A stretch of 64,000 nucleotides of DNA. Origin: an uncultured Pseudothermotoga sp. (GTDB lineage Bacteria; Thermotogota; Thermotogae; Thermotogales; DSM-5069). The stretch is from the NCBI GenBank assembly GCA_937995655.1, contig CALKJI010000005.1, positions 1 to 64,000 of the forward strand, written 5' to 3'. Below, piece by piece: positions 8,366 to 50,522 of this stretch; within the stretch, counting starts at the first letter, position 1; each line of letters starts with the position of its first letter. Position numbers and translations under genes: made by a program. A model generated the notes under the pieces. The model had not been told where the DNA came from, searched no databases, and saw only the letters and a program-made list of their open reading frames with translations.

Positions 8366-9258
8366 AACACTTTGATTTTGTGGGAAAAAGGAAAGTCTTC
8401 ATCTCAATTTCAGCTGTAATGGTCGCGATAAGTCTGATCTTTATCTTCACAAAAGGTTTCAATTTTGGTGTAGAGTTCTTAGGTGGTTCTGAGTTGATAT
8501 TGAGAGTTGAGTCATCCAACTTTACTGAAGCGGATGTAAGAAAAATCCTCAGTGATATATCTTCTGAATTTTCATCGGCAAGAGTTACAAGAGTTAGATC
8601 TATCGGAGATCCAGAAAATGTAGTCAAGTTCTCAGTGACTCTCACCAAGACTTTCACGACTGAAGAAAAAGCTGATGTTCAAGCACAGATAGAATCAAAG
8701 ATCTCTGAAAGAAATCTAAAAGGCCAGGTCATTTCTTTCAACGAAACAGGTGGCTCTGCAGCTGAAGAAATCAGAAGACTCACGTGGCGTGCAGTGATCA
8801 TAACGCTTGTTGCTATACTCGTCTATATTACACTGAGATTCAATTTTGTTTTTGGTGTAGGTGCGACACTTGCTTTGGTACATGACGTTGTTGTGACAAT
8901 GGGTTTCTTTTCTATTTTGAGTTATGAGTTGAATGTACCGGCCGTTGCGGCATTGTTGACCTTGATCGGATATTCACTGAACAACACAATAATCGTTTAC
9001 GATAGAATAAGAGAAAATATGAAAAAGTTCAAGGGCAGAGAAACGTTATCGATAGTAAATGACAGTATAAATCAGGTTTTTAGAAGAACGATAAACACCT
9101 CTGTCACGACCTTTATAGTAGTATTTGTTTTGCTATTGTTCGCAGGAAATGCAATAAAGCCCTTTGCCTTTGGTATGACCGTCGGTACTATTGTAGGAAC
9201 CTATTCTTCAATTTACGTTGCAAGTCCCTTGGTCATACGCTGGGTCAAGAGTAGATAG
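8362..9258 (+). CDS. secF: Protein translocase subunit SecF
   Basis: A 298-residue SecF, partner of SecD. It has an N-terminal TM helix at about 12-31, the F-x-GG motif in GVEFLGGSEL, an extracytoplasmic domain, and five C-terminal helices containing GYSLNNTIIVYDRIREN, the conserved SecF signature. ATG overlaps the secD stop by 4 nt (translational coupling). The gene ends 1 nt before a strong terminator. Confidence 0.95.
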   Translation: MKHFDFVGKRKVFISISAVMVAISLIFIFTKGFNFGVEFLGGSELILRVESSNFTEADVRKILSDISSEFSSARVTRVRSIGDPENVVKFSVTLTKTFTTEEKADVQAQIESKISERNLKGQVISFNETGGSAAEEIRRLTWRAVIITLVAILVYITLRFNFVFGVGATLALVHDVVVTMGFFSILSYELNVPAVAALLTLIGYSLNNTIIVYDRIRENMKKFKGRETLSIVNDSINQVFRRTINTSVTTFIVVFVLLLFAGNAIKPFAFGMTVGTIVGTYSSIYVASPLVIRWVKSR

Positions 9259-42327: not shown

Positions 42328-44256
42328 ATGAAATGGTTAGTCTTTCTGTGTACTGCAGTCGTATGTTGTTGTTTTCCAATAACACTGAAAATTGGTGTTT
42401 ATCACAATCCTCCTTTGATAGATTTTTCCGATGGCAAAGTATCTGGTTTGTATGCTCAGATACTTGAACAAATACTGTCACAGAACAACTGGAAAGCCGA
42501 GTATGTTTTCGACGATTTCAATTTATTGCTCAACAGACTCAAAGACGGACAGATCGATCTCATGACGGCGATAGCCTACACGCCAGATCGTTCTAAACTG
42601 TTCGATTTTAACAACCAAGCAGTGATAATCAACTGGGGTGTTGTTTGCGTGAAAGAGACCTTGAAGAGCTTGTTAGATCTTCAAAACAAGGTAGTCGCAG
42701 CAGTTGAAGATGATGTTTATGGTGATTATTTCAGAAAACTAGTCGAGGAATTCAAGATGAACGTAAGATACTTCTACGTTCAGGACTATGAAGCAGCCTT
42801 TAAAGCTGTTAAGAATGATCTGGCCGACGCCTGCGTTGTCAGTCGAATCTTCGCTCATAAGAACGCATCACGCTATTCATTGAATGTCAGTGGGATAGTC
42901 TTCTCACCTGTAGAACTAAGATTTGGACTTACCAAAGGTTCAGAGAAAAATCAGCTACTTATAGAAACTATAGACAGTTATCTGTATCAGATTAAATCTG
43001 ACCAGCAGGGTTATAACCAATTACTTAGTCGTTATCTTGGTATATATGTAGAGAAGAGTGTGCTTCCTGATTGGGTTAGAACGATTTTGATCTCAACGGC
43101 TGTTGTGATAGGATTGTTTGTCTTGTGGACGACCTCTTTGAGAAAAATGGTGACAGCTCGCACTAGTGAGTTGAACAAAACTTTACAGGAACTCCATAAG
43201 AAGAAGGAAGAATTGCTTGCGGCAAATGAGGAAATTACAGCACAAAGTCAAGAATTGGAAGCCACGAATGAGGAACTAAATAAAACGCTGACTCTACTGG
43301 AAAAAGCAATCCACAGGTTCACCAAATCTATGGACCTTTTGGACAAAATTGCTACTTTCACAAAAGATGAAGAATTCTGCTGGAACTTTCTTGACATGGT
43401 AAGATCTGTGGTTCCCACCTGTTCGGTAGCCTTTTCATACATGAATTTGGGATACCTTTATACGAAAGATGGCGCCAGAATAATCTGGACAATTTATGGT
43501 CATGATCTACCTTACACTCTTGATGAGAAGGTCTATGAAACTATCAACATTGAATCAGCGAACAACTCGAGTTTGACTCTTTTCAACCATTCAGAACAAA
43601 ATCTTACAAGTGATATCATCAATTTGGTGAAAAGTCTCCTGAATATAGCAAGAGTCTTTCTCAAGCTAAGAACCTTTGAGGCCAATGAAAGGCAGTTTGT
43701 CAAAAGAATTAATGATGTTTTGATTACCATTTTAAACTACCATGAACCCTATACGGCTTCACATTCAAATCGATCCAGCGATTATGCCGTGGGAATTGCA
43801 AAACGTTTGTTTTTGGACGATGAAGCGGTCGTGAGGGTTTACTGGGCAAGTCTCATTCACGATATTGGAAAGATCGTGATACCAAGAGAAATATTGAACA
43901 AAAGTTCAAAGCTGTCGCCGGAAGAATTTGAAGTAGTGAAGACTCATCCAGTTGTAGCTGCTGACCTACTGAGAATGGCGGGATTGGATGATATAGCTAA
44001 GATAGTGCGCCATCATCACGAGCGATTCGATGGAGCTGGTTATCCAGACGGCTTAAGGGGTGAGCAAATACCGATCGAATCAAGAATCATTGCGGTGGTG
44101 GATGCGTATGACGCTATGACCAGCGAAAGATCTTACAGAAGAATGCTAACGAATGAAGAAGCAATCGAGGAACTCAAGGCAAACTCTGGCACTCAGTTTG
44201 ACCCTTTGATTGTACGCACATTCATTGAGTTACTGAAAGATTCAAAGAAGGAGTGA
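42328..44256 (+). CDS. Membrane sensor: solute-binding domain fused to HD-GYP phosphodiesterase
   Basis: A 642-residue hybrid sensor. A signal peptide leads a bacterial solute-binding protein family 3 domain (about 20-240; KIGVYHNPPLIDF, ending in LLSRYLGIYV). Then come a TM helix at about 248-270, a coiled coil at about 275-330 (KKEELLAANEEITAQSQELE), a poorly conserved GAF-like region at about 345-470, and a C-terminal HD-GYP domain with HDIGK near 511, HHERFDGAGYPDG near 563-575, and DAYDAM. The HD-GYP residues look complete, so it should hydrolyse c-di-GMP in response to a periplasmic small molecule such as an amino acid (inference). GAGGAG lies before the ATG. Confidence 0.88.
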   Translation: MKWLVFLCTAVVCCCFPITLKIGVYHNPPLIDFSDGKVSGLYAQILEQILSQNNWKAEYVFDDFNLLLNRLKDGQIDLMTAIAYTPDRSKLFDFNNQAVIINWGVVCVKETLKSLLDLQNKVVAAVEDDVYGDYFRKLVEEFKMNVRYFYVQDYEAAFKAVKNDLADACVVSRIFAHKNASRYSLNVSGIVFSPVELRFGLTKGSEKNQLLIETIDSYLYQIKSDQQGYNQLLSRYLGIYVEKSVLPDWVRTILISTAVVIGLFVLWTTSLRKMVTARTSELNKTLQELHKKKEELLAANEEITAQSQELEATNEELNKTLTLLEKAIHRFTKSMDLLDKIATFTKDEEFCWNFLDMVRSVVPTCSVAFSYMNLGYLYTKDGARIIWTIYGHDLPYTLDEKVYETINIESANNSSLTLFNHSEQNLTSDIINLVKSLLNIARVFLKLRTFEANERQFVKRINDVLITILNYHEPYTASHSNRSSDYAVGIAKRLFLDDEAVVRVYWASLIHDIGKIVIPREILNKSSKLSPEEFEVVKTHPVVAADLLRMAGLDDIAKIVRHHHERFDGAGYPDGLRGEQIPIESRIIAVVDAYDAMTSERSYRRMLTNEEAIEELKANSGTQFDPLIVRTFIELLKDSKKE

Positions 44257-44261
44257 TAACT

Positions 44262-45083
44262 TTGATCTATTTTTACTTGCTGGCTACACTGCTTATTTGG
44301 TCTTCCATGGAGGTTCTCACCAAACCCATGATGAATCAAGTCGATCCTTTCTTTGTGACCTTCTTCAGATTTTTTATTGGAGGTCTTTTTTTGTTGATCT
44401 TCATCCGTAAAAAGATACCATTGAGAGATTTGACTCTAATTGCTTTGATTGGTTCCATCAATGGCCTATTGTCGATGTCACTTTTGCAATTTTCTGTTAA
44501 ATTGTCAAACGCATCAACGGCGGCGACACTCGTTGCTACTAATCCCTTGTTTGTGACAGTTTTTTCGGCATTGCTTGGTAAAGAAAGACTCACGACAAAA
44601 AGGCTTTTGAGTGTTGGCATGGGATTAGCGGGGGTCTTGATCCTCTCTTATGGCAGGATAGAGGGTGATAGTGTTGCCGGTTTGCTCTGTGGCATTGGTG
44701 CCGCGATAACATTTGCTCTCTACGTGGTACTTATGAGGGATTTCACGTCAAAATATGGCTCGGTGAATGCCACAGCAGTATCAATCTTTGCATCGGGAAT
44801 GATATATGGTGTACTGCTCGTTTCAACTAGGAGTCTGAATGTGCCCCATATAGGTATCTGGCAATGGTTTATTCTAATCTACGCCGGTGTTTGTGTAACG
44901 GGACTTGCATATGTTACCTACTTTAAAGCGATGGAAAAACTTGGGCCGTCTCGAACGAGCCTTGTTTTTTACCTCAAACCAGCCGTTGCAAGTTTTTTGG
45001 CTTTCCTGATCCTTTCAGAACCGATTGGTATCTTCAAGTTCCTGGGTACTGGTATCATTATATTTGCGTTACTGTTGAGGTGA
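44262..45083 (+). CDS. EamA/DMT-family transporter
   Basis: A 273-residue transporter with about ten TM helices in two EamA repeats (first around ATLLIWSSMEVLTKPMM, second around GLLCGIGAAITFALYVVLMR). The first half contains LVATNPLFVTVFSALLGKE, typical of drug/metabolite exporters of the RhaT/YdcZ kind. The start is TTG 44262, 8 nt after AAGGAG; a GTG at 44253 lies inside that SD. Substrate unknown. Confidence 0.87.
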   Translation: MIYFYLLATLLIWSSMEVLTKPMMNQVDPFFVTFFRFFIGGLFLLIFIRKKIPLRDLTLIALIGSINGLLSMSLLQFSVKLSNASTAATLVATNPLFVTVFSALLGKERLTTKRLLSVGMGLAGVLILSYGRIEGDSVAGLLCGIGAAITFALYVVLMRDFTSKYGSVNATAVSIFASGMIYGVLLVSTRSLNVPHIGIWQWFILIYAGVCVTGLAYVTYFKAMEKLGPSRTSLVFYLKPAVASFLAFLILSEPIGIFKFLGTGIIIFALLLR

Positions 45084-45110
45084 GAATATCTTTTGTGGGG
45101 AGGTGGTGCG

Positions 45111-46397
45111 GTGAAAACTGTCATGTCAGTTTTCTTCTTAGTAATCTTGATGGTGCTTTTGAATGCCGATCAAATGGTGATGTCTCCCACCATTGGCATG
45201 ATCGAAGAAGAGTTTCATGTAACCGATGCACACATAGGTCTAGTGGGAGCTGTCTTCACTGTTTTAGGTGCGCTGATAAGCCTGATATGGGGTTATTTGT
45301 CTGACAAGTACAATCGAAAAAATTTGTTGATTTACTCTATCCTTGTTGGAGAAGTTCCCTGTCTTATGACAGCCTTTTCTACATCCTTTGGTCAACTCTT
45401 TTTCTGGCGTGTACTGACTGGAATTGGTGTAGGTGCTAGTTTTCCGATTGTATACTCTTTAGTTGGAGATATGTTTGACGAAGTAAATAGGGGAAAGGTC
45501 GTAGCTATCTTGGCATCTGCAATGTCTATAGGTGGCATTTTAGGTATGATCGTTGGAGGGTTCGTAGGTCCCACATTTGGTTGGAGGATTCCTTTCATAT
45601 TGGTTTCCCTTCCCAATATATTACTTGCATTGATTGCAATGTTTGTGTTGAAGGAACCAAGAAGGGGTGCCTTTGAAAAAGGCATCGGCGAATTGGTACA
45701 AGCTGGATATGCATATCCAAAACTGCCAAAGATACAAGATTATGCTAAGTTGATAACAGTTAAGACCAATCTCTTCCTGTTCTTTCAAGGTATACTTGGT
45801 ACAGTGCCATGGGGTGCTATACCTTACTTTCTCGTGGAATACTTTAGAAGGGAGAGAAATTTATCTATCGAAATGGCCACATTGATTTTCTTGGTTTTTG
45901 GCATAGGTAATATTCTTGGTACAGTCTTTGGTGGTTGGATCGGCTCAAAGTTATACAAAATATCTAAACCATCTGTACCAATCTTCTGTGCTGTCACTAC
46001 AGCGCTTGGAGTATGGCTCACAGTTCTCACAATCGATTATTCGGCTGTTGGGTCAAGGGGTCTCATTATCCTTGGCGTGCTTGGTTTGTTCGCCGCGTTG
46101 ATGGATAGTCTAACAGGAGCGAATGTAAAGTTCATGCTCTTGAATGTCAACGAACCTCAAGATCGAGGAAGGATCTTTTCCATTTTCAACCTGACTGATT
46201 CACTCGGAACTGGTGTTGGAAGATGGATTGGTGGCTCACTCTCGGTCCTCTTGGGCTCTCTTGGAGCTGCCATGAAGGTATCGGCGTATTTCTGGTTTGG
46301 TTGTTCAGTTTTCTTGTTTTTGCTGACCTTCTATTTTGCAAGGGATGTGCAGTCACTTGAACAAAAGATGATCGCGCTTGGACAAGAAAGGGGGTAG
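45111..46397 (+). CDS. MFS transporter
   Basis: A 428-residue major facilitator with 12 TM helices. The first half has GLVGAVFTVLGALISLIWGY followed by LSDKYNRKNLLI (the loop 2-3 signature D-K-x-x-R-K). It resembles spinster-like/general MFS carriers with no clear substrate. The start is GTG 45111, about 8 nt after GGGAGG; an in-frame earlier start at 45093 lies in the leader. The GH1 glycosidase gene follows 4 nt later, so a sugar or glycoside substrate is plausible. Confidence 0.88.
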   Translation: MKTVMSVFFLVILMVLLNADQMVMSPTIGMIEEEFHVTDAHIGLVGAVFTVLGALISLIWGYLSDKYNRKNLLIYSILVGEVPCLMTAFSTSFGQLFFWRVLTGIGVGASFPIVYSLVGDMFDEVNRGKVVAILASAMSIGGILGMIVGGFVGPTFGWRIPFILVSLPNILLALIAMFVLKEPRRGAFEKGIGELVQAGYAYPKLPKIQDYAKLITVKTNLFLFFQGILGTVPWGAIPYFLVEYFRRERNLSIEMATLIFLVFGIGNILGTVFGGWIGSKLYKISKPSVPIFCAVTTALGVWLTVLTIDYSAVGSRGLIILGVLGLFAALMDSLTGANVKFMLLNVNEPQDRGRIFSIFNLTDSLGTGVGRWIGGSLSVLLGSLGAAMKVSAYFWFGCSVFLFLLTFYFARDVQSLEQKMIALGQERG

Positions 46398-46401
46398 TTC
46401 G

Positions 46402-47871
46402 ATGTTTGGGGAGAACTTTCTTTTTGGTGCATCGATGGCAGGGTTTCAAGTTGAAATGGGATATGCAAGAGATGACGTGGATCCAAACACAGATTGGTTT
46501 GTATGGGTCAGAGAACCTGAAAATCTCATAACGGGTGCCGTGAGTGGACATTTACCAGAATATGGTGTCGGATACTGGAACAATTATCCTCTTTTGCATC
46601 AACTTGCTGTAAATTTTGGAATGAATGCTCTTAGAACCAACGTTGAATGGTCCAGGATCTTTCCGAATCCCACCCTTGATGTTCAAGTTATCGTTGAGGT
46701 TCAAGACGGTATAAGAAAAGTACAAATAAACCAGGAAGATCTTCAAAAACTAGACAAGTTTGCAAACAAAGAGGCCGTTGAGCACTACAGACAGATTTTC
46801 AAAGACATGAAAGATCGCGGATTGAAAGTCATACTCAATCTATCTCACTTCACACTTCCACTTTGGATCCACGATCCAGTATCTGTCCATAAAGGCTTAC
46901 AGACGGAAAAAACAGGCTGGGTGAACGATCAAACCGTTATAGAATTTGCCAAATTTGCTGCCTACGTTGCTTGGAAATTTGACGATCTTGTCGACATGTA
47001 TTCCACGATGAACGAACCGAATGTTGTGAGTCAAATGGGATATATCATGAGCAGATTTGGCTTTCCACCATCTTATTTCAGCCCAGAAATGTACATAAAG
47101 AGCCTTTTGAACCAAGCACAGGCGCATGCGAGAGCGTATGACAGTATTAAATCGCTCAGTAAGAAACCTGTCGGAATAATCTATTCAGCCTCGGCGTACG
47201 AATCGGTGAACCAAGACAAGGTCATCGAAGAAAATGCCAACTATCTAATGAATTATCTTTTCTTGGATGTCATCACAAGTGGTAAAGTATTCTTTCAAGA
47301 ACGTCAGGATTTGAAAAATAAAGTCGATTTCATTGGGCTGAATTATTACACAAGAACAGTGATAGACCGAATTAAACCGGTTGATTTTGGTGTGCTCTCG
47401 CTCGAATGGACTATCGTTGATGGCTATGGATACAATTGTGTACCAGGTGGTATCTCAAAAGACTGTAGGCCAGTTAGTGACTTTGGATGGGAGATATATC
47501 CAGAAGGTTTGTTGAAGGTTCTTAAGTTGATCTACAACAGATATAGGTTACCAATAATTGTGAGCGAAAATGGGATCGCAGATTCCAGAGATTGGCTCAG
47601 ACCATACTATCTGGTAGGACACCTTTATGCTATAGAGAGGGCTATTCAAGAGGAGATAAAGGTAATTGGTTATCTACATTGGTCTATAGTTGATAATTAT
47701 GAATGGGCAAGAGGATATCACATGCGCTTTGGACTTGCAGAAACAGATTATGAGACAAAGAAACTGACTCCAAGGCCGTCTATGTTCATTTTTAGAGAGC
47801 TCGTGAAAAATGGTAGTTGTGATAAGTTCTACAGATACCTCAAATCACCTTACGAAATATGGAGAATCTAA
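46402..47871 (+). CDS. Archaeal-type GH1 beta-glycosidase
   Basis: A 489-residue glycoside hydrolase family 1 enzyme. It starts FGENFLFGASMAGFQVEMG and has DPNTDWFVWVREPEN, close in order and wording to Sulfolobus LacS and Pyrococcus CelB rather than bacterial BglA. The acid/base Glu is in STMNEPNVV near 206 and the nucleophile Glu in VSENGIAD near 388. WSIVDNYEWARGYHMRFGL near 427 is present. The extra segments between strands match the archaeal subfamily. It probably cleaves beta-galactosides/glucosides in the cytosol (no signal peptide). SD AAAGGGGG precedes ATG 46402; earlier in-frame ATGs lie inside the MFS gene. Confidence 0.93.
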   Translation: MFGENFLFGASMAGFQVEMGYARDDVDPNTDWFVWVREPENLITGAVSGHLPEYGVGYWNNYPLLHQLAVNFGMNALRTNVEWSRIFPNPTLDVQVIVEVQDGIRKVQINQEDLQKLDKFANKEAVEHYRQIFKDMKDRGLKVILNLSHFTLPLWIHDPVSVHKGLQTEKTGWVNDQTVIEFAKFAAYVAWKFDDLVDMYSTMNEPNVVSQMGYIMSRFGFPPSYFSPEMYIKSLLNQAQAHARAYDSIKSLSKKPVGIIYSASAYESVNQDKVIEENANYLMNYLFLDVITSGKVFFQERQDLKNKVDFIGLNYYTRTVIDRIKPVDFGVLSLEWTIVDGYGYNCVPGGISKDCRPVSDFGWEIYPEGLLKVLKLIYNRYRLPIIVSENGIADSRDWLRPYYLVGHLYAIERAIQEEIKVIGYLHWSIVDNYEWARGYHMRFGLAETDYETKKLTPRPSMFIFRELVKNGSCDKFYRYLKSPYEIWRI

Positions 47872-49916
47872 AGGTGGGAGTTAGCCCACCTTTTTCTTGA
47901 AAAGAGTATTCTCATAGAGTTGACTGTACACAAAAGCGCTACGCCAGTGTCTGCAAAAACACCTTGCCACATAGTCGCATTACCAGTTGCTGCAAGGGTT
48001 ATGAAGAACAACTTAGTTGCGATTGCAAAGATTATGTTTTCTAGAACGATTTTCTTTGTCAATTTGGCGATCTCTATCGATTCAACTACTTTTATAGGTT
48101 CTCCACTCATGACAACAACATCTGCTATTTCAATAACAGCATCGTTGCCGAACCCATTCATGGCGATACCAACATCTGCTCTTGCGAGTGCTGGTGTATC
48201 ATTTATACCATCTCCAACGAATGCGGTTTTCCCAGTTTTCATTATCTTTTCTTCAAGTATTCTGAGCTTATCTTGCGCAAGTAATTGAGCATAGTAATTG
48301 ACCCCATGTAGTTTCTCTGAGATGATGGACGTCTTTTCGCTGCTATCACCCGTGAGTATGTAAACATCTATGTCTTTTTTCTGAAGAAGTTTTACAGCAT
48401 CTACAGAAGTTCTTTTAAGTCTTTCATTCAGGTGAATGTTGCCTGCGTATTCTTTGTCAATAGCAACGTGTACAGCAGAGTTTTTATCCAAATCGCATAC
48501 AGTGTGCGGGTGTGGGATCTTTTCAAAGTGCAAAAGTTTGTCGTTTCCAACATGAACCATTTTTCCATTCACAGAGCATTTGACACCTAAGCCATTCACC
48601 TCATGAAAATCCTTGACGATGGAATGATCGATCTGTCTGTAAGCTTTGGTGATCGATACAGCAACTGGATGGTTGGAATTGGCTTCAGCATGGGCAGAGT
48701 ACATTAATACTTCGTCTTGTGAAAAACCGTTCACACCGTTTATCTTTGATATTTCGAAATCTCCATGCGTCAGAGTACCAGTTTTGTCAAAAACAACGTT
48801 CTTGACATTGGCAAGCACATCCAAAAAGGTTGCACCTTTCACAAGAATGCCCTTTTTGGATAACTTCCCTATTGCCGCAAAATAAGCTAAAGGTACAGCT
48901 AAAACCAACGCACATGGACATGAAATGACAAGTAGAATCAGTCCACGATTGATCCACTGACTTATGCTTTGTCTTGTTAATAAGGGTATCACAAAAGCTA
49001 TCAGTGCCGAGAAAGATACAACAGCAGGTGTGTAATATCTTGCAAAGGTTGTGATGAATCTTTCTGTTTTGGCTTTTCTCTCTGATGCACTTTCCACTAG
49101 TCTGAGAATATTTGTCATCGATGAATCTTCATACCTTTTCAGAACTTTCACCTTCATGGGTGTTTCTTTTACTATAACGCCAGCAGGAACATTTTCCCAC
49201 TCAGTGATATATCTTGGTGTAGATTCACCCGTTATGGGCGAGGTATCCAGATAACCGTTACCCTCTACGATTACACCGTCCACTGGCACTTTTTCACCAG
49301 GTTTTACTAAAATCACTTGCCCTACTTCAAGGTCTTGAGGATCGACTTGTTGAAGCTGAGAACCTTGTACAAGCCAGGTTTTCTTTGGCATCGCTTCGAT
49401 GAGTAATCTCACAGACCTTCGTGAACGATTAACAGCCATTTCTTGTAAGAACTCTCCAAACTTGTATAAGAGCATCACTGTGGCAGCCTCTTCATACTGT
49501 TTCAAAAAGATAGCCCCAATTGTAGCTATACTCATCAAGAAATTCTCATCAAGCACAAAGCCTTTCCTTAAATTCTTAACTGCCTTTATCAAAACATCGT
49601 AACCGACCAACAGGTATGACAGAATGAAAAGGTACCAGAAATTAAAGACGAAGGAAAGAACAAACAAAGTGGAAGCCAGGATTATTGGAAAAAGTTCAGA
49701 GTATTTCCTCCCATCGTGCTCGACTAGCCTGATATCTTTTTCTATGGAGCTGACAATTCCTTCCACATCAACATCACCATCAGATTCAACATCGAGGACA
49801 CCCAAGGAGAAGTTCAGTTTCACTTTTTTCACGTTATTCACCTTTGACAGGGTTCTTTCGATTTTTGTTGCACAGTCAGGACAGTGTAGATTCTCAAGAT
49901 AGTAACGTTTTTTCAT
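47868..49916 (-). CDS. Heavy-metal-translocating P1B-type ATPase (Zn/Cd/Pb type)
   Basis: A 682-residue metal efflux pump. An N-terminal heavy-metal domain has CPDC (Cys12, Cys15). Then come TM helices, the A domain with SPITGESTP, the CPC motif in SCPCALVLAVPLA near 330, DKTGTLTHG near 374, and GDGINDTPALARADVGIAMN near 575. The last TM contains FADTGVALLCTVNSMRIL, where a conserved Asp marks Zn2+/Cd2+/Pb2+ pumps (ZntA/CadA group) rather than Cu pumps. The last nine codons read through a transcription terminator. ATG overlaps the ArsR/SmtB gene by 4 nt; the two form a regulated operon. Confidence 0.9.
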   Translation of the reverse strand: MKKRYYLENLHCPDCATKIERTLSKVNNVKKVKLNFSLGVLDVESDGDVDVEGIVSSIEKDIRLVEHDGRKYSELFPIILASTLFVLSFVFNFWYLFILSYLLVGYDVLIKAVKNLRKGFVLDENFLMSIATIGAIFLKQYEEAATVMLLYKFGEFLQEMAVNRSRRSVRLLIEAMPKKTWLVQGSQLQQVDPQDLEVGQVILVKPGEKVPVDGVIVEGNGYLDTSPITGESTPRYITEWENVPAGVIVKETPMKVKVLKRYEDSSMTNILRLVESASERKAKTERFITTFARYYTPAVVSFSALIAFVIPLLTRQSISQWINRGLILLVISCPCALVLAVPLAYFAAIGKLSKKGILVKGATFLDVLANVKNVVFDKTGTLTHGDFEISKINGVNGFSQDEVLMYSAHAEANSNHPVAVSITKAYRQIDHSIVKDFHEVNGLGVKCSVNGKMVHVGNDKLLHFEKIPHPHTVCDLDKNSAVHVAIDKEYAGNIHLNERLKRTSVDAVKLLQKKDIDVYILTGDSSEKTSIISEKLHGVNYYAQLLAQDKLRILEEKIMKTGKTAFVGDGINDTPALARADVGIAMNGFGNDAVIEIADVVVMSGEPIKVVESIEIAKLTKKIVLENIIFAIATKLFFITLAATGNATMWQGVFADTGVALLCTVNSMRILFSRKRWANSHL
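47870..47895 (+). terminator. Terminator after the GH1 gene, overlapping the ATPase 3' end
   Basis: AAAGGTGGG-AGTTAG-CCCACCTTT followed by further T on the plus strand; a 9-bp stem. It overlaps the last codons and stop of the P-type ATPase on the minus strand, where the trailing T run is short, so it is stronger for the plus strand. Confidence 0.82.
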
Positions 49917-50272
49917 CTTTGTTCCTCCTTGACATGTTCAAGAGCCGCTTTGAGAAGTTCTACCACATGCTGATCAGACAGGCTAAAGAAGATCTGTTTT
50001 CCTTGTCTTCGACATTTGACCAGCTTTGTCAACTTCAAAATTCTCATTTGATGAGACACAGCAGATTTTGTGATTCCCGTGATTGCACAAAGGTCGCACC
50101 CACACAACTCTGCCTTTTCCAGCGCAAGCAATATCTTGAGTCTTGTGGGGTCTGAAAGGGCTGAGAATAGTGTTGACATATCATTTATTGTCTGATTGTC
50201 TTGAAAATTCTCAGTAACTAACCTTACTCGATCCTTGTGAACTTCATCTGTTGAGCAGAGATATTTGTTCAT
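49913..50272 (-). CDS. ArsR/SmtB-family metal-responsive repressor (CadC-like)
   Basis: A 119-residue winged-helix repressor of the P-type ATPase next to it. The alpha3 metal site is ELCGCD (Cys57, Cys59), preceded by Cys6 in the N-terminus, as in CadC. The alpha5 zinc site D-x-H-x10-H-x2-E is also complete (DQHVVELLKAALEHVKEE). The recognition helix is in ITKSAVSHQMRIL. ATG 50272 follows AAAGGTG; in-frame codons upstream to 50494 cross the promoter and operator and are not translated. It likely releases DNA on Cd/Pb/Zn binding (inference). Confidence 0.9.
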   Translation of the reverse strand: MNKYLCSTDEVHKDRVRLVTENFQDNQTINDMSTLFSALSDPTRLKILLALEKAELCGCDLCAITGITKSAVSHQMRILKLTKLVKCRRQGKQIFFSLSDQHVVELLKAALEHVKEEQR

Positions 50273-50287
50273 ACAATCACCTTTACA

Positions 50288-50305
50288 GTTGAACAGTTGC
50301 TCAAC
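50288..50305. promoter_or_regulatory. Operator for the CadC/SmtB-type repressor
   Basis: On the minus strand GTTGAGC-AACT-GTTCAAC, an inverted repeat with 7-bp arms and one mismatch. It covers the transcription start region just downstream of the -10 at 50309-50314, the expected position for repression. The GTTGAAC/GTTCAAC arms resemble SmtB/ArsR-family operators. Confidence 0.7.
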
Positions 50306-50308
50306 CAT

Positions 50309-50337
50309 ATTATATACCAAAAAATCTCTATTGTCCA
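50309..50337 (-). promoter_or_regulatory. Promoter of the metal-efflux operon
   Basis: On the minus strand TGGACA (50332-50337), 17-bp spacer, consensus TATAAT (50309-50314). Initiation near 50302 falls inside the operator palindrome. Confidence 0.8.
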
Positions 50338-50522
50338 TACCTATAAATTTCGAAAAAGACAAATCTTGTGTTAAAACAGAAAAACCAAAAGATCCATGAT
50401 AGCCTTGGTAAAATGTAATAACAAGGCATATCCCGTCTTTTGGAGATTTATTAAAGTCTTCGGAGGATGATGGTATACAGATCGAACAAGCCAAAGAAGG
50501 TCAATACGATGAACTATTTGAA

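Follow-up and report, generated by a model that had tools for sequence, protein, structure and literature searches.

A LacS/CelB-type beta-glycosidase that looks long established in Thermotogota and its apparently later pairing with an MFS carrier in a Pseudothermotoga-like family

Introduction

How did a bacterial genome come to hold a beta-glycosidase that resembles archaeal enzymes, and did the carrier encoded beside it come by the same route? These questions are raised by a locus of an uncultured Pseudothermotoga sp. (assembly GCA_937995655.1, contig CALKJI010000005.1, positions 1 to 64,000; this whole stretch of 64,000 nucleotides is called the window here). The initial annotation read the GH1 gene as archaeal in type and proposed horizontal transfer from a thermophilic archaeon, together with the adjacent MFS gene. 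Solved structures of such enzymes include 6KDC from Fervidobacterium pennivorans and 1UWQ from Saccharolobus solfataricus, according to a figure legend (PMC10974336) that also names an Alicyclobacillus sequence in an alignment of enzymes of this kind.

Here, we have typed the GH1 protein, followed GH1 and MFS through separate trees, and compared the neighbourhoods of both genes in Thermotogota and archaea.

Results

The GH1 protein is of the LacS/CelB type

The GH1 open reading frame is complete, running from an ATG at 46402 to a stop ending at 47871 with no internal stops (Table 1). The mechanical ORF list begins it at a TTG at 46378; a G-rich stretch immediately precedes the ATG at 46402, which is the point at which the family relatives align from residue 1. 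Two matches in the window genome fall in this single open frame, which is the one GH1 gene found there.

Table 1. Genes at the GH1 locus and its flanks (window positions).
Feature	Position	Strand	Remarks
SBP_bac_3 + HD-domain protein	42328..44256	+	in the block conserved in the family
EamA-type transporter	44253..45083	+	start overlaps the preceding stop; in the family's conserved block
MFS carrier, 428 aa	45111..46397	+	4 bases separate it from GH1; belongs to a Thermotogota MFS clade; galactoside/galactose carrier predicted from homologue context
GH1 beta-glycosidase, LacS/CelB (BgaS) type, 489 aa	46402..47871	+	E205 acid/base and E389 nucleophile by alignment
Heavy-metal P-type ATPase	47868..49916	-	faces GH1 tail to tail with a 4-base overlap; conserved flank
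ArsR-type regulator	49913..50494	-	adjoins the P-type ATPase; conserved flank

Pfam assigns the protein to GH1 (214 bits). It passes the cut-off of the NCBIfam BgaS model (NF041004) with 647.1 bits against 475, and stays below that of the bacterial BGL model (TIGR03356) with 197.1 bits against 478.5, which places it outside the BglA type. Judged by its sequence, the enzyme is of an already known kind, the LacS/CelB (BgaS) type. That it is LacS/CelB-like rather than BglA-like had been recognised in the initial annotation, and these scores, like the separate position of bacterial-type GH1 in the tree below, agree with it.

LacS of Saccharolobus (1uwq) aligns with the window protein over residues 2-481, including the catalytic contexts, the DPNTDW block and the stretch around residues 93-120. 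The alignment pairs DPNTDWFVWVREPEN of the window with DPNTDWYKWVHDPEN of 1uwq; STMNEPN is present in both, VSENGIAD stands against VTENGIAD, and WSIVDNYEW against WSLADNYEW. The motifs on which the first typing leaned do match 1uwq, but part of them is shared more widely: bacterial-type GH1 rows also have the C-terminal E-W (21/21), the acid/base Glu (21/21) and the nucleophile Glu (20/21). Such features belong to GH1 at large, so the type is decided by the family models and the tree rather than by these motifs.

Both catalytic Glu residues are kept in all 42 Thermotogota and all 84 archaeal rows. The window protein has Q16, H149, N204, E205, Y316, E389, W427, E434 and W435 at the aligned positions, which we take to comprise the acid/base and nucleophile Glu and the residues that bind sugar in the -1 site. 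Position 150 is Phe in 42/42 Thermotogota rows; among the 84 archaeal rows it is Trp in 46, Phe in 26 and Gln in 12. No signal-peptide-like stretch was seen by eye in the protein, so the enzyme is predicted to be cytosolic.

Among solved structures matched by sequence, 6kdc is best (562 bits), followed by 4ha3, 1uwq and others, with 1qvb and 3apg further down. The Fervidobacterium enzyme (6KDC), from a genus that likewise belongs to Thermotogota, has the same Phe at position 150. Its 465-aa chain lacks a stretch near residues 97-112 that the window GH1 retains, and rows of family f3, where 6KDC is placed by inference, adjoin a LacI gene (12/12). LacS (1uwq) differs in having Trp at position 150; the window GH1 has a bacterial host and sits behind an MFS gene. 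Pyrococcus beta-glucosidase CelB (3apg, 456 bits) is of the same wider type. It is absent from the tree, where the Thermococci rows taken as CelB-like form a branch separate from the window GH1; unlike the window GH1, nearly all of these rows have an SBP5 gene on the opposite strand. Other Thermococci GH1 rows fall within the LacS-type group. BglA-type GH1 (1od0, TIGR03356) shares the family and the catalytic motifs, but 1od0 scores 112 bits only and the window protein lies below the BGL cut-off.

The gene is widespread in the phylum

In the window's family, f1, the gene is present in 10 of 11 genomes including the window's, at 65-100% identity, and the single genome with no GH1 match is 71% complete. 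The label Pseudothermotoga-like for this family comes from L033 (Pseudothermotoga sp. RSWP20), which has the same GH1 sequence as G010; likewise, f11 is labelled Kosmotogaceae-like from L050, which is identical to L196/G076. A GH1 match of some type was found in 54 of 61 genomes (the window's included), and the BgaS cut-off was passed in 38 of 103 Thermotogota genomes, with 0/7 in genus g5, presumably Thermotoga.

The nearest relatives of the window GH1 found outside Thermotogota are archaeal. Two archaeal classes were searched at E 1e-60 or better: that of G104 (a Staphylothermus MAG) gave matches in 59 of 229 genomes and that of G105 (a Thermococcaceae MAG) in 40 of 101. In the phylum of G112 (a Dictyoglomaceae MAG), 5/7 genomes have such matches and 0/7 pass the BgaS cut-off; in that of G110 (a Deltaproteobacteria MAG) the figures are 9/297 and 0/297, and two of the 297 genomes encode full-length BgaS-like proteins below the cut-off (386 and 330 bits). 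As the sampling covers part of the bacterial phyla and an Alicyclobacillus sequence appears in the legend cited above, we do not claim that Thermotogota are the sole bacterial holders.

One GH1 copy, at G090:C13:24255-25682, is of BgaS type with one in-frame TGA and lies beside a weaker bacterial-type GH1; it is a pseudogene or an assembly error.

The GH1 tree points to an old exchange with archaea

Of 219 ORF hits, 149 distinct rows were kept, after hits spanning fewer than 400 query residues were dropped and identical ones merged; the copies of G003 (cut at a contig end) and G090 (contains a stop) were lost at this step. A fast tree used 139 of these rows. A careful tree used 99 (467 columns). 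Near-copies, long branches and the two odd MAG rows were removed from it, and it lacks 4 of the 42 Thermotogota and 13 of the 21 outgroup rows; a second set for topology tests kept 86 of the 99, with long branches removed. L064, from a Deltaproteobacteria MAG, is a long branch and was excluded from the careful trees.

In the careful tree, all 38 Thermotogota rows fall into a single clade (support 100/99, recovered in 100% of 200 bootstrap trees). A branch with 100/100 support sets 8 bacterial-type GH1 rows apart from the other 91 (53 archaeal and 38 Thermotogota), so that the phylogeny proposed as a check in the initial annotation does not place the window protein among ordinary bacterial GH1 enzymes. 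The Thermotogota clade is sister to 35 archaeal LacS-type rows, the crenarchaeal LacS-type among them (89/87), with L044 next (94/88). Outside these stand a Thermococci/Bathyarchaeota-type (CelB) group and a Ferroplasma/Bathyarchaeota pair. An ancient exchange of GH1 between archaea and Thermotogota is therefore likely. Since the best tree nests the Thermotogota rows inside archaeal rows, it favours transfer from archaeon to bacterium. This direction is probable as a reading of the best tree only: constraining the archaeal rows to be monophyletic costs 14.95 lnL in the 99-row set (p-AU 0.189) and 5.91 lnL in the 86-row set (p-AU 0.328) and is rejected in neither. The claim of an archaeal source thus stands as to the nearest relatives and is left without its direction.

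The same tests leave room for Thermotogota as the donor, the LacS/CelB type having arisen or persisted in bacteria before it moved to archaea. The occurrence of the BgaS type across the phylum and the two sub-cut-off proteins in the phylum of G110 would fit such a history. We consider it unlikely, as the best tree places Thermotogota between archaeal groups and none of the 7 and 297 genomes searched in the two other bacterial phyla has a BgaS protein over the cut-off. An ancient exchange, probably from archaeon to bacterium, is our preferred reading of the tree.

Within the phylum, an f9 copy groups with f2 and second f1 copies group with f11, and these cross-family placements make it likely that GH1 has also been transferred within Thermotogota. 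In the fast tree, all 42 Thermotogota rows form one clade together with L051, from an Acidobacteriota MAG. The GH1 of L051 (1674-3017) groups with a Kosmotogaceae-like f11 row and has the identical kind of LacI/Opp neighbours; the contig is probably contamination or mis-binned.

The locus is conserved and of native composition

In the relatives examined, the conserved block comprises the genes for the HD protein, EamA, MFS, GH1, P-type ATPase and ArsR; in genus g3 the first two change places. MFS and GH1 are adjacent in 8/8 of the relatives' loci, and the ATPase lies beyond GH1 in 7/8, the eighth contig ending within GH1. The SBP_bac_3 domain is fused to a C-terminal HD domain in the protein encoded upstream of EamA, conserved in this block with the transporters and GH1; this fusion protein may sense a small solute.

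The composition of the GH1 gene is native: relative to 61 mechanical ORFs of the window its z scores are 0.14 (GC) and 0.27 (GC3), and in codon divergence it is 19th of the 25 ORFs that reach 350 aa. The MFS gene departs mildly (z 1.26 for GC, 0.59 for GC3; codon rank 5/25). The comparison of codon use and GC suggested in the initial annotation thus shows no anomaly in GH1, and the implied status of a newcomer does not agree with the gene order kept across the family, the presence in 38 of 103 phylum genomes or the single phylum clade. GH1 looks vertically inherited within the Pseudothermotoga-like family and long established in the phylum. A recently acquired genomic island is ruled out by the native composition, the synteny and the distribution over family and phylum.

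A view in which a thermophilic archaeon recently passed GH1 and MFS together to this lineage could call upon the archaeal type of the enzyme, the ready-made pairs of GH1 and an MFS homologue in several archaea, and the somewhat high codon divergence of the MFS gene. We give this history almost no credence: identity declines from 85 to 65% across the family while the flanks stay conserved, the GH1 clade is phylum-wide, GH1 is native in GC3 and codon use, and a joint origin is rejected by the MFS tree.

The MFS carrier has its own history

For the MFS gene, the mechanical list gives an alternative start, TTG at 45093. None of the 25 NCBIfam models listed for it is over its cut-off as a subfamily, and an AlphaFold model from a 6-row alignment is poor (mean pLDDT 59.3). 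The MFS protein finds a match at E 1e-20 or better in 58 of 103 Thermotogota genomes; beyond the window's family, identity is mostly 49-71%. An MFS orthologue in an f3 genome (G016:C1:452725-453928, genus g8) lies in three pieces, two with a stop, as if decaying. Plasmid-borne kin were considered and discarded: 36 records matched, all at less than 60% identity, and at 28% or less among the 15 listed.

A careful MFS tree was built from 55 of 69 rows. The ten f1 rows cluster together (95/89) and are grouped with f2 and f8 rows (95/99), and all Thermotogota rows form one clade (100/100) on a long branch (1.63), standing with Thermococci and five other Thermoproteia rows (93/72, midpoint root). 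A constraint that unites the ten f1 rows with the crenarchaeal clade, in which 7 of 10 rows adjoin a BgaS GH1, is 107.4 lnL worse and is rejected (p-AU 2e-5); we conclude that GH1 and MFS did not come in as one unit. A joint arrival of GH1 and MFS is ruled out by the tree and the AU test, and the proposal that the carrier came along with the enzyme falls with it. On this phylogeny, the MFS looks like a native Thermotogota carrier with a history separate from that of GH1, and the adjacency in the window's family looks later.

GH1 has different neighbours elsewhere in the phylum

Among the 33 Thermotogota GH1 rows other than the family's main copy, 32 have a LacI gene on the same strand at a distance of 1.6 kb or less (the exception is L028), 25 likewise have an OppF-type gene, and none has the MFS within 1.6 kb. 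The main-copy rows of the family have MFS beside GH1 in 9/9, the window included, and LacI in 0/9. In these tallies L107, a Thermotogota row with a wrong group label, was counted in f9. One GH1 operon named in full by Pfam reads SBP5, OppB, OppC, OppD, OppF, GH1, LacI, GH5.

The window genome has a similar operon, SBP5-OppB-OppC-OppD-OppF-LacI (L332:3264-9879, equal to G000 contig C11:19763-26378), with no glycosidase between OppF and LacI: the OppF stop ends at 8880 and the LacI ORF runs from 8887, six bases lying between. A GH3 gene on the opposite strand adjoins this operon. Its closest counterparts are in G002 and G001 (LacI 67 and 62%, OppF 68 and 59%), where an alpha-galactosidase-type gene occupies the equivalent slot along with a second GH1, which groups with f11 rows. 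As the slot is without a glycosidase in the window genome, we found no GH1 there other than the copy beside the MFS. In the family ancestor, GH1 would have moved from an Opp-type ABC/LacI setting to an MFS-coupled pair.

In six Thermococci LacS-type GH1 loci (L166-L171), OppF- and OppD-type genes are found no more than 0.9 kb away and on the same strand, a likeness to most of the other Thermotogota rows. It is possible that these and the Thermotogota GH1-Opp loci share an operon history.

An ancient co-transfer, in which the pair entered the Thermotogota ancestor and was later split everywhere but in the window's family, would account for GH1-MFS pairs in both domains and for the single clade of Thermotogota MFS rows. 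It seems very improbable to us. The f1 GH1 branch is nested among LacI-adjacent GH1 rows, where one switch suffices in place of many splits, and the Thermotogota MFS clade does not stand with the crenarchaeal clade that holds seven BgaS-linked rows. A later switch of GH1 to a native carrier is the history we retain.

Crenarchaea show a parallel pairing

Of 15 crenarchaeal MFS loci returned, 11 lie directly beside GH1, which is of BgaS type in seven and of a weaker, other type in four; among the four loci without GH1, one MFS runs to the contig end. Seen from the enzyme, 9 of 84 archaeal GH1 rows have an MFS homologue within 1.6 kb, and in three of these (L054, L059, L062) the MFS is on the opposite strand and of a distant MFS branch. 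The crenarchaeal pairs of GH1 with a related MFS suggest convergent pairing. Among the matches listed from a literature search of titles and abstract openings, no paper dealt with GH1-MFS pairing, which is not a claim that none is in print.

Neighbours of MFS homologues hint at the substrate. The 20 Thermococci MFS loci lie beside members of a GH57 cluster (20), a galactokinase cluster (15), another GH1 (8) and a GalT cluster (3), clusters being made by BLAST with one member of each named by Pfam; PIG-L and GH4 neighbours occur in 11/20 as well. Since the GH57 neighbour gives only weak branching-enzyme matches and PIG-L and GH4 stand among the neighbours, a galactose cluster is our reading of these loci. 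In Thermotogota, G090 (f9) has LacI, alpha-galactosidase, GalT, galactokinase and MFS in that order. Most other Thermotogota MFS loci viewed carry little substrate information, with PrmA, ribosomal L21, GTPase and GlyS, an alpha/beta hydrolase or a weak alpha-amylase match as neighbours. From the galactose-gene context in Thermococci and G090, we propose a galactoside or galactose carrier. By this guilt by association, the MFS is likely the partner of a cytosolic enzyme predicted, as GH1 of this type, to be a beta-galactosidase/beta-glucosidase. Scans for promoters and terminators gave no more than in shuffled sequences.

Discussion

We argue that the window GH1 is a LacS/CelB-type cytosolic beta-glycosidase that has been in Thermotogota since early on, after an old exchange with archaea, was inherited vertically in the Pseudothermotoga-like family, and now lies behind a native MFS carrier; we consider this account as a whole quite probable. 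The enzyme would be a retaining beta-galactosidase/beta-glucosidase, held since early in the phylum after a transfer that probably went from archaeon to bacterium. The usual setting of its gene in the rest of the phylum is an Opp-type ABC operon that includes a LacI regulator, whereas the gene lies behind the carrier in the Pseudothermotoga-like family. The two genes may be co-transcribed. As an ion symporter, the MFS would bring in a short beta-galactoside (alternatively galactose or a beta-glucoside), and the imported sugar would be hydrolysed by GH1 inside the cell.

A broader reading is that this MFS family of thermophiles is a galactoside/galactose carrier that joined GH1 independently at least twice, once in Thermoproteia and once in a Pseudothermotoga-like ancestor that left the Opp-type ABC/LacI setting. 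We put this forward tentatively, as an idea about as likely to fail as to hold and perhaps a little more so. It would give a probable substrate class to an MFS family with no curated model over cut-off among those listed.

The locus corrects a tempting story of recent transfer: archaeal likeness here marks an old gene of the phylum, and the carrier has its own history. The new point is a modest one, namely the switch of carrier from ABC with LacI to MFS and its crenarchaeal parallel. If true, it would be a case of convergence across domains in operon design, in which ATP-driven uptake was swapped for ion-driven uptake.
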